From: Marine Group I thaumarchaeote
GTDB taxonomy: Archaea > Thermoproteota > Nitrososphaeria > Nitrososphaerales > Nitrosopumilaceae
NCBI GenBank assembly: GCA_013390745.1
Contig: JACASX010000007.1
Coordinates: 1-56,442, forward strand
Length of the DNA stretch: 56,442 bases
Direction of reading: 5' to 3'
In this document: positions 16,726 through 32,979 of the stretch, in pieces
How positions within the stretch are numbered: position 1 is the stretch's first letter
Layout: each line of letters begins with the position of its first letter
Program-made: the position numbers and the translations under genes
The notes under the pieces: generated by a model
The model's input: only the letters and a program-made list of their open reading frames with translations
Databases searched by the model: none
What the model was told of the DNA's origin: nothing

Positions 16726-18051
16726 TTAACCCATTCCAAGTTTACGAAGGAAACCTTGCATCTGTCTTCCTTTAGATGCCTTCATCATATTTTTTGAATT
16801 TTTATAATTTTTTATTAGTTCCTTAACTTCATGCTCAGGCCAGCCAGAACCTCGTGCAATTCTCTTAACCCTAGAAGCATTGAGAAGATCAGGATCAGCC
16901 TTCTCATCTTGGTTCATACTTTGAATGATAAACCGCCATTTGTCTATTCTCTCTTCCATTTTATCAAGCTGATCTTCTTTGACCATGCCCGATAAACCTG
17001 GCATACTATCAAGTAATCCTTGAAACGAACCAACTTTTGTAACCTCTTCAAGTTGATAATAGAAGTCTTCCATGTTCATCTTACCGCTTGATATTCTTTT
17101 CATACGAACGTCGTCAGCCTCATTTTCTAATCTCTTAGCCAAGTCCAATACTGCTTGAATGTCACCCATACCTAGCAATCTGCCTACAAAACGAGTTGGA
17201 GAGAATGTTTCCAAATCATCTATACGCTCACCCGTACCAATGTACATTACTTGTGCGCCAGTAGCTGCTGAGGCAGCCAATGCTCCTCCTCCTTTAGCGG
17301 AACTATCAAGTTTGGTAATTATTATTCCCCCAACTGGAACTATTTTATGAAATGCTTCCGCTTGAGCATGACACTGTTGACCAATTGTTCCATCAATAAT
17401 TAATAATGCAAGATCAGGCGAAGCAACTTTATTGATTTGCTTCATCTCATCTAGCAAATCTTTTTCTTCCTTGTGCCTTCCAGCAGTATCGATCAAAATT
17501 ATATCAAGATTAGAACTTTCAAAGTGTTTTAAACCATTTTTAACGACTTGAGGTGAGTCTTTGTTTTTTTCGTCACCGTAAACTTCAACATCAGATTTTT
17601 CACACATTGTTCGCAATTGGACCAAAGCTCCAGGTCTAAATGTATCAGCACCAATTACGCCTATGCGGTAACCCTGCTTTGACAAGAATCTGGCAAGTTT
17701 TGATGTGACGGTAGTCTTTCCACTGCCTTGAATTCCTAACAGGAGAACTTTGTTGATTTTTCCAGATTTGAAATGAAATTCAGTATCATTACCTAACATC
17801 TTCGCAAGTTCATCATATAATATTTTTACAATATGATCCTTTCTTGACAATCCTGGTGGAGGCTTCTCATTTAATGAACGGTTCTCAATGTTTTTAGTGA
17901 TTTCGAATACTAACTTGACATTAACATCAGATTGTAATAATGAACGTTGAACGTCTTTAGATAATTCTTTAATCAGTTCCTCATCAACACCTGAAGAACT
18001 TACTATTTTTTTAATAGCAGCCCTCAGACTAGATTTTAGATTATCTAGCAT
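16726..18051 (-). CDS. srp54: Signal recognition particle 54 kDa subunit
   Basis: This GTPase binds 7S RNA and signal peptides to target ribosomes to the membrane. The N domain is followed by the G domain: GIQGSGKTT (G1), DTFRPGALVQL, DTAGRHKEEKDLLDEM (G3) and ITKLDSSAKGGGAL (G4 and closing loop). The C-terminal M domain is methionine-rich (MPGLSGMV and a short tail ending KLGMG). At 441 residues it is full length. It overlaps dph6 by 11 bases. The partner srp19 is also in this window, about 5 kb away. Confidence 0.97.
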   Translation of the reverse strand: MLDNLKSSLRAAIKKIVSSSGVDEELIKELSKDVQRSLLQSDVNVKLVFEITKNIENRSLNEKPPPGLSRKDHIVKILYDELAKMLGNDTEFHFKSGKINKVLLLGIQGSGKTTVTSKLARFLSKQGYRIGVIGADTFRPGALVQLRTMCEKSDVEVYGDEKNKDSPQVVKNGLKHFESSNLDIILIDTAGRHKEEKDLLDEMKQINKVASPDLALLIIDGTIGQQCHAQAEAFHKIVPVGGIIITKLDSSAKGGGALAASAATGAQVMYIGTGERIDDLETFSPTRFVGRLLGMGDIQAVLDLAKRLENEADDVRMKRISSGKMNMEDFYYQLEEVTKVGSFQGLLDSMPGLSGMVKEDQLDKMEERIDKWRFIIQSMNQDEKADPDLLNASRVKRIARGSGWPEHEVKELIKNYKNSKNMMKASKGRQMQGFLRKLGMG

Positions 18052-18733
18052 TAGAATCTAAACCAGCATCCTCTATTTCAAACCTTCCTCTATAGCCATC
18101 CCATATTGTTTTTGATTTGTTTATGTTAATAGGATGTGAATAAAGAGGACAGTCAACAACAAAGGTTTCAGCCTCCCCACCTTCAAAATTTAGGTTGAAT
18201 CCATACTTGTCAGATAATTTATTTAATTGCAACATATCATGTGAGGAAATAATTTTTCCCAACCATCTTTCATCCAAGCCATCAGATGATACACTAGTTA
18301 AAATAAATTTAAAATTAGAAACGATTAGCTCATTCATGTATTCTTTTGTGTTTATTTTCCATAACGGAGTAATTATCTTCAAATCATTTTCCTTACAGAT
18401 TTTTTCAAAACATTTTTTCTGAAATTCGCTAGATATACCACCATGTACCAAGCCTTCAATTTGAAAATCTTGTTTAGCCCTTTTCAATAATATTTTAAGA
18501 GCATCCATTTCTTCTGCTAATTCATTAGAATCCAAAGCTGAAGTGATTTGGGAAATTTTCAAAGCCTTTGACTGTAGTTTTGTTAATTCTATGGCAGGAA
18601 AATGTAGCAGATGGCTGTCCGAAGATTTAGGGAAAACAGTTACCAAGCATTTTACATCATGTCCCATTTGTTTTACTTTATAAATTGAATATGTGCTGTC
18701 CTTTCCTCCGGAGAATAATGCCGCTAGTTTCAT
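18041..18733 (-). CDS. dph6: Diphthine-ammonia ligase (Dph6-type ATP pyrophosphatase)
   Basis: This adenine-nucleotide alpha-hydrolase performs the last amidation of diphthamide on elongation factor aEF2. The N-terminal PP-loop FSGGKDSTYS at residues 8-17 and the family-typical EGLVHGGISSEFQ, PLWKINTKEYMNEL and GGEAETFVVDCPLY identify the DUF71/Dph6 family. The 230-residue length is that of the archaeal single-domain enzyme. It follows aIF5A and the C/D-box RNA on the same strand and overlaps srp54. This placement joins two modified translation factors (hypusine on aIF5A, diphthamide on aEF2). Confidence 0.92.
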   Translation of the reverse strand: MKLAALFSGGKDSTYSIYKVKQMGHDVKCLVTVFPKSSDSHLLHFPAIELTKLQSKALKISQITSALDSNELAEEMDALKILLKRAKQDFQIEGLVHGGISSEFQKKCFEKICKENDLKIITPLWKINTKEYMNELIVSNFKFILTSVSSDGLDERWLGKIISSHDMLQLNKLSDKYGFNLNFEGGEAETFVVDCPLYSHPININKSKTIWDGYRGRFEIEDAGLDSNAR

Positions 18734-18783: not shown

Positions 18784-18848
18784 GGATACCTCAAGTCTCA
18801 TAATCTTCATCAAATTTCAGACGGCTTTTCCAATTATCATCAGCATCC
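18784..18848 (-). ncRNA. C/D-box guide sRNA; D guide complementary to elongator tRNA-Met anticodon loop
   Basis: On the minus strand the order is stem GGAT, C box CTGATGA (18837-18843), a 16-nt spacer, D' box CTGA (18817-18820), 3 nt, C' box TTGATGA (18807-18813), a 12-nt guide (18795-18806), D box TTGA (18791-18794) and stem ATCC (18784-18787). The C'-D spacer has the usual 12 nt. Its complement contains CTCATAA, the anticodon loop of elongator tRNA-Met. By the D+5 rule the methylated base is C34, a guided modification already known in haloarchaea. One mismatch near the D box is expected at tRNA position 31. The RNA sits just after aIF5A, probably on the same transcript. Confidence 0.8.
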
Positions 18849-18850
18849 AA

Positions 18851-19264
18851 TCATGATGATTTTTTGCGCATTATTTTAGTTCTGCCCATAACGTTCCAAT
18901 ACTCAATATCATTACCCTGCTCTAATGTTCCTTCAAGTTCTTCTTCAATCATATCAACATCAATAGTTTCAAATGTCTCTGAATCCATAACCTGTATTTT
19001 AGAACCTACAATAGAGATTATCTGAGCGGCTCTTTTATCAATTAAAGGCACATGTATCTGCATGTTAACCGGACCTACATGAGGACGTTTTTGTCCATCA
19101 AATATTCCTACTCCCACTATTCTTGCCTTAGCTGAGCCATGCTTTCCTGGTTTACTGGTATCATACTCAGTTATCCTACATGGATCACCTGTAGGTTGAT
19201 CAGATACTGGAAGTAAAATATAAGATCCAATTTTCAGTGTTCCTAACTCAGTGGGCTTACTCAT
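18851..19264 (-). CDS. eif5a: Translation initiation factor aIF5A (hypusine-bearing)
   Basis: aIF5A helps the ribosome through difficult peptide bonds such as polyproline. The hypusination loop SKPGKHGSAKAR places the modified lysine at residue 41. The SH3-like N domain and the OB-fold C domain, with its mostly acidic second half, fill the usual length of 137 residues. The C-terminus ends in a basic MRKKSS tail. It is followed after its stop by the C/D-box RNA and then dph6. Deoxyhypusine synthase is not in this window. Confidence 0.97.
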   Translation of the reverse strand: MSKPTELGTLKIGSYILLPVSDQPTGDPCRITEYDTSKPGKHGSAKARIVGVGIFDGQKRPHVGPVNMQIHVPLIDKRAAQIISIVGSKIQVMDSETFETIDVDMIEEELEGTLEQGNDIEYWNVMGRTKIMRKKSS

Positions 19265-19300: not shown

Positions 19301-19909
19301 CTATTTTAATTTTTCAAGAAGAGAAAGGCTCACAAAGTTATTCATTACAATACCCTTACGAGAAATGTTCTGGCGTGTTTTCTCACAATACTGATTTATG
19401 CTTTGCGGGCTACGCTCATCAAATACTTCTATAATAACAATTTTATCTGTATGGGGAAATACGAACTTGGGTTTATCACTACAAAACAAATTCAAATGAG
19501 CAAACCCAGCTTGTCGTATCTTGTCTTTTTTTACGATAATTTTTGCAACATCCGCTATAGCCTCAGAATCATTATATTCTAGATAATATGCAGATACGAA
19601 GCTCTGTTCGTTATCAAAATCTCTTTCAAAAAGCTCATTGTCAACAGTAAAAACGAACGTAGGTTTAGAATTAGTAAATTTTGCCGCATCTTTGACTAGT
19701 TTTTCCTCGTCATCAAATTTTGCTAATAGATAATGATTAGTTGAGAATGGAAAGTATGGTTTACACTCATCTGAAAAAGTTGCAGTGACAAAATATATGG
19801 ATTTTACGTTTCTTGAAGAAGTCCACATGTCCTTTACATCAATTGAGAATTTGTCATGCTGATATGGTACGCAAACATATCCAGATTTTTTTGGTTTTGA
19901 ATTCAACAA
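19301..19909 (-). CDS. Conserved-looking hypothetical protein
   Basis: This 202-residue soluble protein has no motif I recognise. It has mixed alpha/beta character, several aromatic-rich strands (SGYVCVPYQ, YFVTATFSDE, PTFVFTVDNE) and no signal peptide or membrane segment. Both halves contain a strand-rich segment ending in a helix (DEEKLVKDAAKF and SEAIADVAKIIV), hinting at an internal duplication. It lies 36 bases upstream of aIF5A on the same strand, so co-transcription is plausible. The function is unknown. Confidence 0.7.
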   Translation of the reverse strand: MLNSKPKKSGYVCVPYQHDKFSIDVKDMWTSSRNVKSIYFVTATFSDECKPYFPFSTNHYLLAKFDDEEKLVKDAAKFTNSKPTFVFTVDNELFERDFDNEQSFVSAYYLEYNDSEAIADVAKIIVKKDKIRQAGFAHLNLFCSDKPKFVFPHTDKIVIIEVFDERSPQSINQYCEKTRQNISRKGIVMNNFVSLSLLEKLK

Positions 19910-20018: not shown

Positions 20019-20140
20019 CCCAAGCTAGCTCAGCCTGGTAGAGCTTCCGGCTGTAGTAGTTGGCTTTAGGCTAAACTGAATTCCAGCCTATCAGGCATAC
20101 AGAAACCGGGTTGTCGAAGGTTCAATTCCTTCGCTTGGGA
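20019..20140 (+). tRNA. tRNA-Tyr (GTA) with a 48-nt intron
   Basis: Acceptor strands CCCAAGC (20019-20025) and GCTTGGG (20133-20139) pair fully and are followed by discriminator A at 20140. The D stem is GCTC/GAGC, the anticodon stem TCCGG/CCGGG and the T stem GAAGG/CCTTC with loop TTCAATT. The anticodon is GTA at 20053-20055. The intron at 20057-20104 sits in the canonical 37/38 site. CTGT pairs with ACAG to make the 4-bp central helix, with 3-nt bulges on both sides. The intron contains its own AGGCT/AGCCT hairpin. CCA is not encoded. A TATA-like TTATTTAA at 19987-19994 lies about 29 bases upstream. Confidence 0.96.
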
Positions 20141-32878: not shown

Positions 32879-32979
32879 TGCAGGAGGTGGGATTTGAACC
32901 CACGAACCCCTAAGGGAAAGGATGGCCCATTGCCAAAATCTTGAGTCCTTCTCGGTTGGCCGGGCTTCGATACCCCTGC
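32879..32979 (-). tRNA. tRNA-Leu (CAA) with a 16-nt intron
   Basis: Read on the minus strand, acceptor GCAGGGG pairs with CTCCTGC (one G-U pair), discriminator A at 32879. The D stem is TCG/CGA and the anticodon stem AAGGA/TCCTT. The anticodon CAA is followed at 37/38 by a 16-nt intron (32924-32939). Bases CTCA of the loop pair with TGGG of the intron, giving the central helix of a bulge-helix-bulge with 3-nt bulges. A class II variable arm CCC-TTA-GGG and T stem GTGGG/CCCAC follow. CCA is not encoded. A TATA-like A/T-run lies about 28 bases upstream. Confidence 0.95.

Follow-up and report, generated by a model that had tools for sequence, protein, structure and literature searches.

The locus and the architecture of the RNA

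In the window, that is, the whole stretch of 56,442 nucleotides of thaumarchaeal DNA analysed in this study, the genes of aIF5A and dph6 (diphthine--ammonia ligase) are separated by a gap of 117 nt, and this gap holds a 65-nt RNA gene on the same (minus) strand. The stop codon of aIF5A ends 2 nt before the RNA, and dph6 starts 50 nt past it. Both neighbours, which a preliminary description of this DNA had already named, were confirmed by Pfam and NCBIfam, and its attribution of the DNA to a thaumarchaeon holds as well. Upstream of aIF5A, a 202-aa ORF (window 19301-19909, minus) gave no Pfam match at E<=0.001. The features of the locus, in the direction of the RNA, whose 5' end is at 18848 and whose 3' end is at 18784, are as follows:

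18851..19264, minus strand: aIF5A gene, upstream neighbour
18784..18848, minus strand: box C/D guide RNA gene, 65 nt
18842..18848, minus strand: closing stem, 5' arm GGATGCT, with covariation
18834..18840, minus strand: box C, AUGAUAA, in the conserved register that is kept in relatives
18823..18831, minus strand: D' guide core (+3..+11) GGAAAAGCC; predicted target 23S rRNA GGCUUUUCC, with +5 on C2510 (E. coli numbering)
18817..18820, minus strand: box D', CUGA (CTGA)
18807..18812, minus strand: box C', UGAUGA (TGATGA)
18795..18806, minus strand: C'-D guide, 12 nt
18797..18805, minus strand: D guide core (+3..+11) GATTATGAG; predicted target elongator tRNA-Met 32-40, with +5 on C34
18791..18794, minus strand: box D, UUGA (TTGA)
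18784..18790, minus strand: closing stem, 3' arm GGTATCC, with covariation
18041..18733, minus strand: dph6 gene, downstream neighbour

Read from 5' to 3', the RNA passes from the arm GGATGCT through AUGAUAA, a 13-nt spacer with the D' guide, CUGA, AAUU, UGAUGA, the 12-nt D guide and UUGA to the arm GGTATCC, and this succession of C, D', C' and D boxes at guide spacing is as in archaeal box C/D sRNAs. The preliminary description had given the coordinates 18784-18848 correctly for an RNA on the minus strand, and its box order, its 12-nt C'-D guide and the places of its D', C' and D boxes were borne out. Its C box, read as CUGAUGA, lies 3 nt upstream of the register AUGAUAA that relatives conserve (ATGAT[AG]N in the aIF5A-anchored RNAs), and the C-D' spacer, put at 16 nt, is 13 nt once box C is placed in that register. 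The closing stem, described as GGAT/ATCC, is indeed present, but it extends over 7 bp (GGATGCU/GGUAUCC) rather than 4 and stands immediately beside the D box.

The boxes C (AUGAUAA) and D (UUGA) of the window are each one base from the consensus. For the D box this had been remarked before, and it is one base off, but it is not unusual, since TTGA occurs in 54, and ATGA in 51, of 129 distinct sequences chosen by exact cores. Because of that selection, the set is informative for boxes and flanks only; it includes the window RNA and two bacterial matches, from Echinicola and Ruegeria, which were taken as chance. The k-turn pairing between C box base 5 and D box base 1 is usually G-C; in the window these bases are A and U, so that the pair could be A-U, and not all other relatives form it.

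Evidence beyond chance and conservation among relatives

Covariation of the closing stem was measured in 18 sequences picked from 24 aIF5A-anchored RNAs, in which 99.2% of the cells were paired and changes on both sides occurred at four of the seven pairs. None of 500 shuffles reached the paired fraction or the covariation score of the stem, and slid versions of it were 29-54% paired. All seven pairs were kept in 23 of the 24 anchored RNAs and six pairs in the other one. Moreover, a full C/D descriptor, fitted to the RNA family of the window, found a single site, the window RNA itself, in 1,053,513 of the 1,075,201 bases of the genome, and no site on six Markov-shuffled genomes. A search with Rfam at the locus gave no match, and the gathering score of no family was reached.

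A looser C-guide-D descriptor recognized 520 modules in the genome, 14 of which match some rRNA or tRNA 9-mer, with 12.5 expected; a 9-nt guide match to rRNA or tRNA alone therefore carries no weight. Such a figure is what a box-like sequence arising by chance would lead one to anticipate, yet the covariation, the conservation and the box structure argue against that reading, which conservation already refutes and to which we attach almost no probability. That the element is a box C/D guide RNA, and more than chance, is confirmed. A tRNA target was matched by only two of the 520 modules, both with +5 on C34, while about 0.06 were expected (520 x 32 tRNAs / 4^9). The second of these, on tRNA-Leu(CAA), is partly post hoc, because the spliced tRNA joined the target set after the guide was seen.

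With reference to the relatives, aIF5A was matched in 109 of the 121 host-family genomes. The preliminary description had named a lack of box conservation in relatives as a ground for doubt; the boxes proved to be conserved, as a pattern search recovered the RNA, complete with boxes and stem, at 24 of the 30 aIF5A loci obtained, and the pattern TGATGA-N-GATTATGAG-N1..2-WTGA was detected in 97 of the 121 host-family genomes, covering 18 of 22 genera, with none for its reversed control in the same 121. The exact pattern is missing in the other 24 genomes, through incompleteness or through loss, which counts against the main reading. The six aIF5A loci lacking the RNA belong to genus g15 (five) and genus g13 (one): in g15 the RNA is found apart from aIF5A and adjoins dph6 in both loci read (L128, L129), and in the g13 genome the model R1 places it elsewhere on the same contig as aIF5A.

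At a threshold of E<=0.01 the model R1, built from 18 RNAs, had matches in 249 of the 300 class genomes, and the weakest of these matches may be other C/D RNAs; the window RNA was scored at E=1.7e-22 as one of R1's own 18 sequences. There was no R1 match in five listed host-family genomes (G036, G096, G002, G055 and G309). Among the 80 listed of at least 119 stretches in the carrier scan, the carriers include Nitrosopumilus, Nitrosopelagicus, Nitrosarchaeum, Nitrosotenuis, Cenarchaeum, Nitrososphaera and Nitrosopolaris.

The gene neighbourhood was counted at loci chosen by score or by hand, some of them ended by contig ends. A same-strand dph6 within 350 nt downstream was noticed at 33 of 34 host-family loci and 12 of 26 other loci, and aIF5A within 120 nt upstream at 22 of 34 and 7 of 26, respectively. 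So regular a placement of dph6 directly downstream on the same strand in the host family would suit a cis-acting dph6 leader or aIF5A trailer, such as a k-turn that binds L7Ae and controls the mRNA, in place of a guide acting in trans. Nevertheless, 14 of the 26 loci outside the host family have no dph6 within 350 nt downstream, and the RNA has two intact guide cores, one fitting a tRNA and the other an rRNA, which makes a cis-acting element highly improbable in our judgement.

The two guides and their predicted targets

The D' guide forms 10 consecutive Watson-Crick pairs (+2..+11) with the 23S rRNA of its own genome, its core GGAAAAGCC being complementary to GGCUUUUCC and its +5 falling at own-23S position 2614, which we take to be E. 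coli C2510 from the motif GAUGUCGGCUC (G2502 to C2512). This second guide and its 23S match had been missed in the preliminary description. The 23S rRNA was read in 29 of 38 genomes, the other nine being without a match, and carries GGCTTTTCC in the 12 host-family genomes read and GGCTCTTCC in the 17 read outside the family. In all 24 genomes read for both partners, guide +7 agrees with 23S position 2512, A standing with U2512 and G with C2512; the nine host-family genomes all have A at +7, and the 15 others all have G. Five genomes were left out of this count, two without the D' core (G136, G221) and three in which the D' guide was unread (G008, G016, G022). The +7/2512 switch is a compensatory guide-target difference, which gives evolutionary support to one target, the 23S rRNA; the switch in the rRNA may be a single evolutionary event.

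Three tRNA-CAU genes were found in the genome, which we take to be an initiator (L006), an Ile2-like tRNA (L019) and the elongator tRNA-Met (L026) from comparison with known archaeal tRNAs. The last has an insertion of about 20 nt, whose removal leaves a 5-bp anticodon stem. This insertion is intron-like, lies just 5' of position 31 and varies in length across genera (L026, L075-L104), and the target of the D guide is wholly 3' of it. Alignment to the genome's own elongator tRNA-Met, a check proposed with the earlier claim that D+5 falls on C34 and that the guide complements the anticodon loop, gave 10 of 10 Watson-Crick pairs between +3..+12 and positions 32-41, with +5 facing C34, and no other tRNA matched the D guide by Watson-Crick pairs throughout. 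This removes another ground for doubt named with that claim, an anticodon arm unable to pair with the guide. The mismatch foreseen at tRNA position 31 is there as well, facing guide +2, beyond the conserved core.

The tRNA-Met has CTCATAATCTGG in every match (105 of 121 host-family genomes); it is thus invariant in the host family, and therefore no compensatory change supports the D guide. Among the 129 core-selected RNAs, 118 have T at +2, a base able to pair with A31, and the base at +12 is G in 56, C in 36, A in 32 and T in 5. The C at +12 in many relatives is a mismatch to Met U41 and counts against guidance of tRNA-Met, and +12 was found not to follow tRNA position 41 when the two were compared. 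One RNA (L155, from G136 of f17) has the D guide core GCTTATGAG, which predicts a tRNA-Met with CTCATAAGC; none was found among the CAU tRNA matches listed outside the host family.

It is important to note that the Ile2 of the genome has the same positions 32-40 as tRNA-Met and differs only at 41, so that it makes 9 of 10 pairs with the D guide, a shared 9-nt core that the preliminary description had also overlooked. The D guide might then serve tRNA-Ile2(CAU), or both CAU elongator tRNAs, and not Met alone. Positions 32-40 are likewise common to the two tRNAs in G001, G016 and G023, where Ile2 has CTCATAATC among the matches listed; the frequent C at +12 would pair with Ile2 G41 and not with Met U41; and the genome has a gene for TiaS, whose substrate is C34 of Ile2. 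In several lineages, however, the two tRNAs differ. Ile2 has CTCATAACC, with C39, in six host-family genera (G012, G040, G003, G009, G010 and G007) among the matches listed, a reading that covers part of the 34 genomes, and outside the family in G126, G159, G172 and G310, where Ile2 and Met were assigned by resemblance. Guide +10 stays A in G003, G007, G040, G010, G126, G159, G172 and G310, and in G031 for the genus of G012, matching Met U39 and not Ile2 C39, and the A at +12 in the window fits Met only. Since +10 stays A in genera with C39 in Ile2, Met is the kept D target, and on this evidence the elongator tRNA-Met appears to be the conserved target choice over Ile2 across lineages. A guide meant for Ile2, alone or with Met, is thus quite unlikely, although Ile2 could be an extra target in the window's own genome, where the two are not separable at +3..+11.

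Of the 24 aIF5A-anchored RNAs, all have an unchanged D' core and 22 an unchanged D core (+3..+11), while guide positions +1, +2 and +12 vary. In 30 R1-positive genomes, mostly of other families and hand-picked from those with an R1 match, the corresponding numbers are 25 for the D' core and 18 for the D core, and another four depart from the D core at one position. The remaining eight have a different D guide, which counts against guidance of tRNA-Met as the main reading, though one of them (L163) is likely to be a separate RNA. In G238, G244, G249, G197, G165 and G006 an unchanged D' core goes with a different D guide. Two close relatives have damaged D guides, by a 2-nt deletion (L043) and by a change at +6 (L041), with the D' guide intact, which also counts against the main reading. 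It could be argued from the six genomes and from the broken guide of L043 that only the rRNA arm matters, and that the D arm is a passenger whose tRNA-Met match is a relic. We regard this as very unlikely, because all nine nucleotides of the D core, whose complement in the tRNA does not vary, are preserved in 22 of the 24 anchored and 18 of the 30 R1-selected RNAs, while the flanks of the core are variable.

Among the RNAs with a different D guide, L142, L149, L150, L153, L159, L160 and L162 keep the D' core exactly in six cases, L149 being one base off. In two of them, from f11 (L150, L153), the replacement D guide would place C34 of a CGA anticodon at +5 as its predicted target. A second C/D-like RNA was detected in the genome of the window (C9:33463-33525 minus, equal to L329:13463-13525; stem TGCAGGC/GCCTGCA; R1 E=7.2e-6), whose D guide core is complementary to the spliced form of tRNA-Leu(CAA), beginning at position 32 and placing +5 on C34, and whose D' guide has no exact match in the genome's own 16S or 23S. 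A similar guide, GAGGATCTTGAG, is present in L163 (G221). The tRNA-Leu(CAA) gene itself (window 32879-32979, minus) was missed by ARAGORN on the window and found by Rfam, and an intron-bearing tRNA-Tyr(GTA) (window 20019-20140, plus) was missed by both on the window; the two were recovered in other searches of this analysis.

Proposed function and relation to known guide RNAs

Since the D' guide follows 23S position 2512 while the D guide fits tRNA-Met, the RNA looks like a mixed tRNA/rRNA double guide. The earlier reading, a C/D RNA for C34 of elongator tRNA-Met, is supported by the sequence comparisons, and we consider it very probable that the gene yields an aIF5A-dph6-ffh-derived C/D sRNA guiding 2'-O-methylation at both tRNA-Met C34 and 23S C2510. 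We infer that the sRNA would probably be cut from an aIF5A-dph6-ffh transcript and would assemble with L7Ae, Nop5 and fibrillarin; in this particle, the D guide would direct 2'-O-methylation of the wobble C34 of elongator tRNA-Met and the D' guide that of 23S rRNA C2510 (E. coli numbering). The benefit might lie in decoding held strictly to C34:G3 pairs, or in a protected tRNA. As for the machinery, Nop5 and fibrillarin genes lie side by side on contig C5, both above the Pfam cut-offs; fibrillarin also passes one NCBIfam cut-off, and Nop5 falls below its own (372 vs 452 bits). L7Ae was not matched by four strict regular expressions in 98% of the 86%-complete assembly, and one ORF from the L7Ae motif search was not L7Ae-like in appearance.

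A broader proposal is that one particle couples wobble methylation of tRNA-Met to a second event at 23S C2510, a base beside the peptidyl-transferase centre, where it would methylate the rRNA or assist its folding. The particle would have been passed on together with dph6, ffh and, in many cases, aIF5A, perhaps since a time before the class Nitrososphaeria divided; some lineages would have replaced the tRNA arm, and the rRNA arm would have stayed constant. We hold this to be possible, though unlikely.

Box C/D-guided Cm34 of tRNA-Met has been described in haloarchaea and humans (PMC7994747, PMC2584109, PMC4033218, PMC6601510). The haloarchaeal sR-tMet guides Cm34 of elongator tRNA-Met (Joardar et al. 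2011, as cited in PMC4033218 and PMC6601510) and is, like the window RNA, a box C/D RNA aimed at C34 of that tRNA. Unlike it, the window RNA is a compact 65-nt gene between aIF5A and dph6 that bears another guide, matching 23S rRNA; the likeness of the two is one of target. SNORD97 and SCARNA97 of humans are also box C/D RNAs for Cm34 of elongator tRNA-Met (PMC6601510); these are eukaryotic, and their likeness to the window gene, too, is one of target. In Pyrococcus, four wobble-base C/D sRNAs are listed, for tRNA-Leu(CAA), Leu(UAA), Met and Trp (PMC7994747), the same target class, and the host genome too has a C/D-like RNA fitting C34 of Leu(CAA). By the account of PMC7994747, tRNA-directed sRNAs put one guide on the tRNA and have no target for the other, whereas the other guide of the window RNA matches 23S rRNA.

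The archaeal rule as given in PMC4644070 is nine consecutive guide-target pairs including +5, and both window guides, with 10 pairs each, agree with it. The archaeal rRNA double-guide sRNAs of that source share the rule, with +5 at the target, but they address two rRNA sites within 100 nt, and the window RNA a tRNA and an rRNA. Promoter-like motifs were reported at only a fifth of the archaeal C/D genes studied in PMC7994747, most of which overlap or abut their neighbours, and the close spacing of the window RNA fits this arrangement. Regarding the modification itself, Cm34 is recorded in the initiator tRNA-Met of two archaea and the tRNA-Trp of a third in PMC7668247, where it is argued to lock C34 onto G at the third codon position. 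According to PMC6601510, human cells without Cm34 have no growth defect, and Cm34 protects tRNA-Met from angiogenin cleavage.

Among the matches listed in the open-licence literature, we found no paper that deals with C/D guide RNAs in ammonia-oxidising archaea or Nitrososphaeria. Since guides for Cm34 of tRNA-Met are already known from haloarchaea and humans, and one has been predicted for Pyrococcus, the earlier claim amounts to a well-supported new member of this group, and the new part is the mixed, widely kept double guide. It departs from the rule, as stated in PMC7994747, that tRNA-directed sRNAs have no second target, and it presents a guide RNA that can be traced across much of an archaeal class, with two predicted methylation sites, tRNA-Met C34 and 23S C2510. 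In summary, the RNA would extend the guide-directed Cm34 of tRNA-Met to another major branch.
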